Positions 1,645 to 3,598 of a DNA stretch of 64,000 bases are shown piece by piece. The notes below the pieces were generated by a model. The model did no database searches. It was not told where the DNA came from and saw nothing but the letters and a program-made list of their open reading frames with translations. The position numbers and the translations under genes are program-made. This stretch comes from Demequina pelophila (GTDB lineage Bacteria; Actinomycetota; Actinomycetes; Actinomycetales; Demequinaceae), in NCBI RefSeq assembly GCF_000971175.1, contig NZ_BBLY01000001.1, positions 917,709 to 981,708 of the forward strand, read 5' to 3'. Each line of letters begins with the position of its first letter. Positions within the stretch are counted from its first letter, which is position 1.

Positions 1645-2051
1645 CAGCGACCCGCATGACCCGCCAGCGCGCGGCCCTGCTCGACGCGCTCCGCGACGGC
1701 GGGTTCCGCTCCGCACAGGGGTGGCACGAGCGACTGCGCGCGGACGGCTCCACGGTGGGCCTCGCCACCGTCTACCGGGGCCTGCAGGCCCTGTCCGAGT
1801 CGGGCGAGGTGGACACCGTGGTGACCGATTCGGGCGAGACCCTGTACCGCCACTGCGGCCCGGGCGAGGACGAGCACGGCCACCACCACCACCTGCGCTG
1901 CCGCGAGTGCGGCCGCGCGGTCGACATCGACGTGCCCGGCTTCGAGACCATCGTCGCGGAGCTCGCCTCGCACCACGGCTACCGCGACATCTCGCACACC
2001 ATCGAGCTCTCCGGGGTGTGCCCGGAGTGCGCCGCGGCCGCCCGCGACTGA
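1641..2051 (+). CDS. zur: Fur-family transcriptional regulator, probably Zur
   Basis: A 136-residue Fur-family repressor that would sense zinc and control the transporter genes it follows. The start chosen is the ATG overlapping the znuB stop (ATGA); it gives the usual family length. An N-terminal winged helix (TRQRAALLDAL to GLATVYRGLQAL) precedes the metal-binding half, with the HHHH stretch and RCREC around residues 77-88 and a second CPEC near the C terminus, i.e. the two CxxC pairs of the structural zinc site. Fur or Mur is possible, but the zinc-type transporter context favours Zur. Confidence 0.85.
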   Translation: MTATRMTRQRAALLDALRDGGFRSAQGWHERLRADGSTVGLATVYRGLQALSESGEVDTVVTDSGETLYRHCGPGEDEHGHHHHLRCRECGRAVDIDVPGFETIVAELASHHGYRDISHTIELSGVCPECAAAARD

Positions 2052-2587
2052 TGGCCGGAGTCCCCTCCTTCATCTCCGACGGCCCCTGGTGGGGGCTGTT
2101 CGTGTTCCTGTGCGGCGTGGTCTTCTTCCGCACGCAGGGCACCTACTGGATCGCCCGGTGGGCCAGGACGGGGGCCGATGCGGTGGCCGACCGCGCGGAG
2201 GCCCACCACTCCCCTCGGGCCCGGCTGGCGCGCCGCTTCTCCGGGCCCGGCATGGAGCGGGCGCGGGAGGCGATCGAGCGATGGGGCTACCTCGCGATCC
2301 CCGTGTCCTTCCTCACCGTCGGGTTCCAGACCATGGTGAACGCGACCGCCGGGTACACGCGCATGCGCTGGGACCTCTACACCCTCGCGATGATCCCCGG
2401 CTGCCTCGCCTGGGCGACCGTCTACACGCTCGTCTTCCTGGGGTTGTGGGAGGCGTGGTCACGATCTCCGTGGCTGCTCGCCGCCGCCGTGGCCGCCATC
2501 ATCGTGGTCGCGTTCGGCCTCAACCACTGGCGTCGGCGCCGTCGACCCGCCGAGCCGGCCGACGCATCGTCCCCCTACGCGTCGTAG
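2051..2587 (+). CDS. DedA/VTT-family membrane protein
   Basis: Small integral membrane protein (178 residues). The ATG shares its first base with the zur stop (TGATG). Hydrophobic segments lie near residues 13-28, 82-100, 108-130 and 138-155. The central ERWGYLAIPVSFLTVGFQT and NATAGYTRMRWDLYTLAMIPG segments resemble the re-entrant loop and conserved helix of DedA (SNARE-associated/VTT) proteins, thought to move lipid carriers across the membrane. The charged C-terminal tail contains a copy of the GCATCGTCCCC 11-mer. No direct link to zinc is visible; it may simply be the last gene of the operon. Confidence 0.65.
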   Translation: MAGVPSFISDGPWWGLFVFLCGVVFFRTQGTYWIARWARTGADAVADRAEAHHSPRARLARRFSGPGMERAREAIERWGYLAIPVSFLTVGFQTMVNATAGYTRMRWDLYTLAMIPGCLAWATVYTLVFLGLWEAWSRSPWLLAAAVAAIIVVAFGLNHWRRRRRPAEPADASSPYAS

Positions 2588-2836
2588 CGCGGGGTCGCCG
2601 GGGCACGGACGTCGGCCTCGGCCCGCCCCCACCTGTCCGGGACGGTGGAGACCGCACATCCGGCCTCTCTGCGCCCTGCGGGACAGTGCGGACCGATGCA
2701 CGACGACCGCTACGGTCCTCGCTGTCCCGCAGGACGCGACACGCGCATCTCAGCGGTCCTCACTGTCCCGGACCCGCGGGGACGACGAGGGCGGCGGACT
2801 GCGGTGACGCGGGCCGCGACCGAGCGGGATCCGCCC
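2588..2836. other. Convergent intergenic gap holding a nested inverted repeat
   Basis: No gene is seen. The gap lies between the ends of two convergent transcripts (DedA-like and uppS) and is largely taken up by the nested palindrome at 2635-2773. A bidirectional transcription stop is the simplest role. Confidence 0.7.
2635..2773. repeat. Nested inverted repeat, four copies of one 20-base unit
   Basis: Four related units of about 20 bases are arranged symmetrically: two inverted (2635-2655, 2675-2694) and two direct (2714-2733, 2753-2773). The inner pair can form 12 plus 5 base pairs around a 3x3 internal loop (CCTGCGGGACAG against CTGTCCCGCAGG, GGACC against GGTCC). The outer pair can form 9 plus 6 pairs (GTCCGGGAC against GTCCCGGAC). 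The shared core resembles GGTCCTCACTGTCCCG. The convergent setting suggests a double-sided terminator, but the four-unit architecture also resembles a REP-type or protein-binding element. Confidence 0.75.
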
Positions 2837-3592
2837 CTACGCCGCGCCGAACCTCCGGTTGCGCCGCGCGTACTCCTCGATCGCGGCCCACAGGTGCGTG
2901 CGGTCCACGTCCGGCCACAGGGTGTCGCTGAAGACGTACTCCGCGTACGCGGCCTGCCAGGGCAGGAAGTTCGAACTGCGCTGCTCGCCGCTCGACCGCC
3001 AGAACAGGTCCACGTCCGGCATATCAGGCTCGTCGAGGTGCGCGGCGAGCGTCGCCTCCGTCACCTTGTCGGGGTCGATCTCCCCCGCAGCGGCCTTGAG
3101 CGCGATGGCGCGGGCCGCGTCGGCGATTTCCGCGCGGCCGCCGTAGTTGACGCACATCGTGAGCGTCAGCACGGTGTTGTCGCGGGTGAGCTCCTCGGCC
3201 TTCTCGAGCTCCGTGATGACGGACTTCCACAGCTTGGGCCGGCGCCCCGCCCAGCGCACGCGCACGCCCCACGAGTGCATCTCGTCGCGGCGGCGGCGGA
3301 TCACGTCCCGGTTGAAGCCCATGAGGAAGCGCACCTCGTCGGGGCTGCGCTTCCAGTTCTCCGTGCTGAAGGCGTACGCGGAGACGTGCGAGACGCCCAC
3401 CTCGATCGCACCCGCGACCACGTCGAGCAGCGACGCCTCGCCCTGCTCGTGCCCGGCGGTGCGCGGGAGCCCGCGCTCCTTGGCCCAGCGCCCGTTGCCG
3501 TCCATGACGACGGCCACGTGGTGGGGCACCGCGTCGCGCGGCAGGTCGGGCGGCGTGGCACCCGAGGGGTGCGGGAACGGGCGGGACACCAT
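2837..3592 (-). CDS. uppS: Isoprenyl transferase (cis-prenyl diphosphate synthase)
   Basis: Condenses isopentenyl diphosphate units into the long-chain polyprenyl diphosphate lipid carrier for cell-wall synthesis. The catalytic [13 protein letters not shown] motif lies near the N terminus; FSTENWKRS and the C-terminal [14 protein letters not shown] (usually RTSGE..SNFLLWQ) are also present. I prefer ATG at 3592 (251 residues) over GTG at 3598 because a -10-like TAGCCT lies exactly six bases before that ATG. The hexamer overlaps the stop codon of the upstream HAD gene, so uppS may have its own leaderless transcript as well as readthrough from HAD. Confidence 0.93.
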
Positions 3593-3598
3593 GCGCAC

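Follow-up and report, generated by a model that had tools for sequence, protein, structure and literature searches.

What is a nested, four-armed inverted repeat doing between two converging genes, and is it anything other than an elaborate transcription terminator? The question arises from the window, a 64,000-nucleotide stretch of Demequina pelophila DNA (73% G+C; the source genome is 2.68 Mb in 11 contigs) in which a small membrane protein gene and uppS face each other across an intergenic gap. The initial annotation had described two inverted and two direct copies of a 20-base unit in this gap, nested around a common center, and had read them as a duplicated palindromic unit or a recognition array. 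A repeat search detected inverted and direct repeats across positions 2624 to 2784, and the arm coordinates and shuffle-tested folding likewise bear out the nested arrangement, with folding z scores of -6.1 and -7.3 on the two strands against dinucleotide shuffles (0 of 200 shuffles as good). The repeat is real, but the unit had to be redrawn: the true arm is 17 nt rather than 20, with the consensus CGGTCC-N5-GTCCCG, in which the 5 central bases are variable, and the arm starts are spaced 41, 34, and 41 nt apart (Table 1). A search of the window element against Rfam returned only subthreshold chance matches.

Table 1. Features of the window element, its neighboring genes, and the related nuclease gene (window positions unless a contig is named)
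Feature	Position	Strand	Remarks
Small membrane protein gene	2051-2587	+	Convergent upstream neighbor
GTC extension of arm 1	2635-2637		
Arm 1, outer left	2638-2654	-	CGGGACGGTGGAGACCG; one mismatch among the fixed positions
Spacer 1, 24 nt	2655-2678	.	Weakly conserved TGC...CTG beside arm 2 (column information)
Arm 2, inner left	2679-2695	-	CGGGACAGTGCGGACCG
Central spacer, 17 nt	2696-2712	.	Length constant in all complete copies of the source genome; sequence nearly free
Arm 3, inner right	2713-2729	+	CGGTCCTCGCTGTCCCG
Spacer 3, 24 nt	2730-2753	.	CAG...GCA beside arm 3
Arm 4, outer right	2754-2770	+	CGGTCCTCACTGTCCCG
GAC extension of arm 4	2771-2773		
uppS (isoprenyl transferase)	2837-3598	-	Convergent downstream neighbor
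pcnA-linked nuclease of the source genome	G000 C6:172816-173715		

The element belongs to a dispersed family. The source genome (G000), covered in stretches, holds about 23 complete four-arm copies of the same geometry together with half-copies and tandem extensions, and a control search for the four-arm geometry with the reversed pattern returned none. The initial annotation had proposed a genome search for further copies, and its contrary case, a unit with no other copies, does not hold. Including that of the window, 22 complete copies align without gaps, their arm starts always 41, 34, and 41 nt apart; the 23rd, at C11:1234561-1234693, is more degenerate. In the 22 aligned copies the fixed positions, twelve to an arm, carry 5 mismatches in 1,056 (99.5% conserved), while the five central arm bases are 57% identical and the 24-, 17-, and 24-nt spacers about 46% identical, against a composition expectation of 29%. 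Copies cluster at convergent gene ends: 14 of the 22 lie in convergent gaps, with 7 in tandem gaps and 1 in a divergent gap; the share in convergent gaps exceeds that among neighboring gene pairs in the window (8 of 57; binomial P = 1.2e-7), with gene orientations taken from a simple codon-usage gene caller whose calls are approximate.

Strong folding invites the view that the RNA hairpin is what selection maintains, in which case two halves should be more alike when they come from a single element than when they come from separate ones. They are not: spacer 1 matches spacer 3 at 0.509 within an element and 0.492 between elements, the middles of arms 1 and 4 match at 0.536 within and 0.627 between, and mid-arm positions are often unpaired (14% and 23%). 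Pairing within an element is thus no better than between elements, which indicates that the arms are conserved as sequence and not as a hairpin, and selection for RNA structure was rejected for lack of within-element covariation. Conservation of the arms at sequence level and at constant spacing supports the recognition-array reading of the initial annotation. Duplication of a palindromic unit was not quite right, since the unit consists of two nonpalindromic arms 41 bp apart, present once in each orientation, as at the two ends of a nuclease gene described below.

Several other features of the arms and their surroundings in the source genome were recorded. Arms also surround the nuclease gene and stand in tandem within coding sequence; in one array (L063; C11:93408-93688), 5 to 6 in-frame arm copies (CGGGACASTGAGGACCG) follow one another in tandem at intervals of 30 or 42 nt within a coding sequence for acidic DRDSEDRES repeats. 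Between argG and argH (L064; C11:298831-298929) there are 3 to 4 arms in the same direction, 41 bp apart, and the inverted half is missing. Several genes enter the first arm and stop just inside the element, giving C termini like ...TVRDTEDR (L055, L070, L051, and L052). Many elements are directly adjoined by short C- or G-rich units repeated in tandem (flanks of L047, L053, L056, and L062), as if these junctions were prone to slippage.

We then compared element sites with the corresponding junctions in relatives. The exact arm core is missing in the first 58 relatives searched, and a scan of 84,980 species for it yielded 11 stretches elsewhere, with other center lengths and no nuclease of the family nearby, which were taken as unrelated. 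In same-genus relatives uppS and the membrane protein gene are also convergent neighbors, separated by just a few bases, and UppS is 93% identical in the nearest relatives compared. The whole gap of about 250 bp is absent there, and its ends are not clean: the extra DNA exceeds the element by about 66 and 51 bp of flank, so either the insertion itself was imprecise or flanking DNA has been added since. On nonsystematic inspection, no target-site duplication was recognized at this locus. For 7 more elements the two flanking genes stand side by side in the relatives G022 and/or G059, usually with less DNA between them (for example, 304 bp in the source genome versus 58 to 74, 219 versus 99 to 156, and 350 versus 167 to 194). 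No arms of the source type were found in these relatives at 6 of the 7 sites; the seventh has two one-mismatch arms of uncertain meaning in the G022 locus. Sites occupied in the source genome and empty in relatives indicate that copies have been gained or lost on the scale of species.

A candidate partner for the repeats appears at contig C6:172505-173884 of the source genome, where a nuclease gene lies between two complete elements, adjoining pcnA, in the order pcnA, element, nuclease, element, MFS. The same gene stands next to pcnA between double arms in G059 (L173), and in these two genomes, which were the ones inspected, the Vsr-type nuclease is the only coding unit found within the double ends. 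The protein of about 300 amino acids joins an AbiEi-like first part, covered by a PADLOC AbiEi match, to a C-terminal Vsr-type restriction endonuclease domain (PF18741 MTES_1575/PF04480 DUF559). Matches of single members to Pfam are weak, that of the source genome falling just below the DUF559 cutoff, and the comparison with solved structures gave a weak link to AbiEi (6y8q; E value, 1.6); PF18741 is nonetheless matched by 12 of 13 aligned members (best E value, 9.7e-9). The profile match together with conserved active-site residues places the family among Vsr-type PD-(D/E)XK nucleases (MTES_1575/DUF559). Six residues of the Vsr-like active site (D228, E239, D241, H245, D254, and R257) are invariant in 48 of 48 nucleases, and because of this the nuclease chemistry is probably in use, as judged from these sequences. 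Homologs were found neither in plasmids nor in viral contigs, so nothing points to an origin from phage or plasmid.

All 44 same-genus genomes searched encode at least one member of this family. Inverted repeats with a score of 38 or more bracket 33 of 48 nuclease loci, compared to 1 of the 53 loci used as controls (uppS and further flank genes), a difference with a Fisher P of about 7e-14 after removal of one duplicate; the 48 loci are partly orthologous and the 33 bracketed cases therefore not all independent, though their arm sequences differ. The remaining 15 genes have no detectable bracket. A typical bracket places two arms 41 to 42 bp apart at each end of the gene, in a sequence specific to that gene (for example, TTCGGGACACTCAGTCCTC in G017, TGCGGGGCACTCACGCACC in G013, and GTTCGGGTGAGTGAGTGTC in G001), and the best self-repeat lag was 41 bp in 23 nuclease ends and 42 bp in 4, with any other lag in at most 3. 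In at least 16 genomes the nuclease gene adjoins pcnA, yet the two neighbors evolve at very different rates: the pcnA-linked nuclease is 36 to 72% identical between species (median, 42%), while PcnA, itself a nucleotidyltransferase, is a housekeeping protein conserved at 82 to 91%. A second nuclease group (L223, L237, L240, and L219) has closely similar arms (GGTAGGTNNTGGTCGG) across several species, unlike the fast-changing pcnA-linked group, and at a distant paralog (L228; flanks of G059:C12:295874-296716) a near-perfect palindrome of about 28 bp on each side (CCTGTGAGGAGATGAGGGTACGAATCG...) replaces the 41-bp doublets.

Other species carry arm families of their own. A relaxed search brought up G059, of the same genus, whose arms, CAGTACTGAGCGTCCCG and GAGGACTGAGTGTCCCG, form doublets of 41-bp spacing in --++ order with variable centers. 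A generic doublet pattern, which favors GGGAC-type arms, matched 15 of 44 same-genus genomes, with a reversed-pattern control near zero, and --++ elements are present in G017, G061, and G011, many again at convergent ends. Dispersed arms resemble the nuclease flanks of their own genome: in 8 genomes the mean best match was 14.6 of 17 positions, versus 12.9 when labels were permuted, and only 1 of 2,000 permutations reached the observed value. The best-matching locus was mostly the pcnA-linked nuclease (G000, G017, G059, G061, and G011); the dispersed families of G061 and G026 match the sampled nuclease genes only partly. A region of G059 (C12:314608-317496) considered as a long parent transposon was dropped, because the two half elements in it enclose a ClpC-like housekeeping gene.

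From these patterns it seems likely that the window element is a nonautonomous, dispersed four-arm repeat belonging to a nuclease-repeat partnership that resembles the REPIN/RAYT systems and is run by an unrelated Vsr-type nuclease. Half an element, a pair of 17-bp arms pointing the same way at a distance of 41 bp, corresponds to one end of a gene-sized unit carrying the nuclease, and the complete four-arm copies would be minimal units in which two such ends are joined, multiplied by the nuclease or dependent on it. The enzyme would recognize the double arms as DNA, at the level of sequence, binding a doublet probably on one face of the helix at sites about four helical turns apart. The sequence comparisons show the association of nuclease and arms, and from it we infer that the nuclease binds, nicks or cuts, and mobilizes these repeats; its activity may copy, move, or homogenize the arms, and copies would survive chiefly where they do little harm, just beyond gene 3' ends. 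A nuclease locus held vertically and evolving fast together with its arm sequence would leave each species with its own arm family. The weakest step of this model is that simple transposition does not explain arms that are nearly fixed beside spacers that have strongly diverged; this combination requires either selection for binding at each copy or nuclease-driven conversion between arms. Given the divergence of the spacers, moreover, no copy looks recent, an odd trait in an active mobile element.

Each of the other explanations that we weighed accounts for part of these data. Copies conserved for RNA folding as bidirectional intrinsic terminators without a U tract, placed between convergent genes, would fold strongly on both strands and be enriched at convergent 3' ends, as observed. 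However, we looked for a T-run at the window element and none is present, the pairing data reported above run counter to selection for folding, termination requires neither exact spacing nor a particular arm sequence, and arms are also found around the nuclease gene and, in tandem, within coding sequence. We regard this explanation as very improbable, in keeping with the initial view that the structure is not a simple terminator, and termination may be a side effect of the elements. It is unlikely, though less so, that the arms are operator or anchoring sites for the winged helix-turn-helix part of the nuclease, with the four-arm arrays serving as a selected regulon or nucleoid-organizing site that spread by ordinary duplication and was never mobilized by the nuclease. 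This reading accommodates the conservation of arms and not spacers in each copy, agrees with the AbiEi match over the N-terminal part of the protein, and has a precedent in AbiEi and Rv2827c, whose own promoters contain arrays of 23-bp inverted repeats to which these proteins bind (PMC7319586). Against it, arms occur also downstream of the nuclease gene and at the 3' ends of unrelated genes, with a single one of the 22 copies in a divergent gap; known AbiEi operators have gaps of 3 or 13 bp and not 41-bp periods, element sites differ between species, and the active-site residues of the nuclease are invariant.

A conventional miniature inverted-repeat element (MITE) of some other transposase, with the nuclease gene as a passenger caught between two copies, would also produce symmetrical, inverted ends carrying two sites each, nonautonomous copies of compact size, and empty sites in relatives. 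This we consider improbable, as a passenger does not account for brackets around 33 of the 48 members of one gene family, with an arm sequence particular to each, or for dispersed arms that track the nuclease flanks of their own genome; moreover, no other coding sequence was seen to be common to the doublets and no target-site duplication was recognized.

The nuclease-repeat partnership would have consequences beyond this locus. Nuclease genes are present in every one of the 44 genomes searched without a known role there, and the species-specific arms provide a concrete DNA target for them, open to immediate testing in vitro. If the nuclease does maintain or spread the arms, partnerships between repeats and nucleases arose more than once, and such repeated origin, if true, bears on why bacteria retain RAYT-like enzymes. 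Fast joint change of arms and protein could further supply a natural series of paired DNA-recognition specificities. In the search of published open-access papers, none turned up that connects nucleases of this kind with repeats, whether flanking or dispersed.

Among known systems, the fold family of the C-terminal domain is that of the Vsr-type restriction endonuclease MTES_1575 (PF18741), which is defined, in an account whose domain description mentions no association with flanking or dispersed repeats, within a large HEPN fusion protein (PMC3710099). With AbiEi antitoxin operators (PMC7319586) the system shares an AbiEi-type winged helix-turn-helix protein and repeated site arrays near its own gene. 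The protein here differs in its fused C-terminal nuclease part and in that no AbiEii toxin gene is adjacent to it in the source locus, and the sites differ in flanking the gene on either side, at 41-bp spacing, and in being dispersed, whereas AbiEi sites are promoter repeats. The four-arm repeats resemble MITEs of insertion sequence elements in being short and nonautonomous, in having inverted symmetrical ends, and in being missing from the same junctions in relatives; unlike those elements they combine fixed arms with strongly diverged spacers and show no recognized target-site duplication, and no transposase partner was identified for them among the coding units inside double ends in two genomes, the linked enzyme being a solitary Vsr-type nuclease.

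The closest parallel is with REP/REPIN repeats, which pair with RAYT (TnpA_REP) tyrosine transposases (PMC3116915, PMC8049555, and PMC3733652). Both have short conserved arms at a fixed distance with diverged spacers, arranged as inverted pairs in extragenic positions, often at gene 3' ends, and both have a single, vertically kept gene of nuclease type flanked by the arms of the dispersed family, with one arm family per enzyme. The components differ: no match to the Y1/HUH RAYT transposase (PF01797) was found in the source genome, compared to 5 positives among 14 control genomes, and the enzyme here is of the PD-(D/E)XK, Vsr-like type with an AbiEi-like part; there are four arms, with double ends 41 bp apart, and the arm (that of Table 1, outer right) is not palindromic and has no GTAG/GGAG tag. 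We lean toward a new class of systems resident in the genomes of high-G+C bacteria, in which solitary AbiEi-like/Vsr-type nucleases would recognize 41-bp doublets, codiversify with them species by species, and propagate or maintain four-arm repeats, as a convergent counterpart of RAYT/REPIN built from double-stranded DNA nuclease parts. Such a class would be categorically new in that it shares no component with its closest known relative; the logic is shared, so where logic is held to outweigh parts it would count as a variant of REPIN/RAYT.
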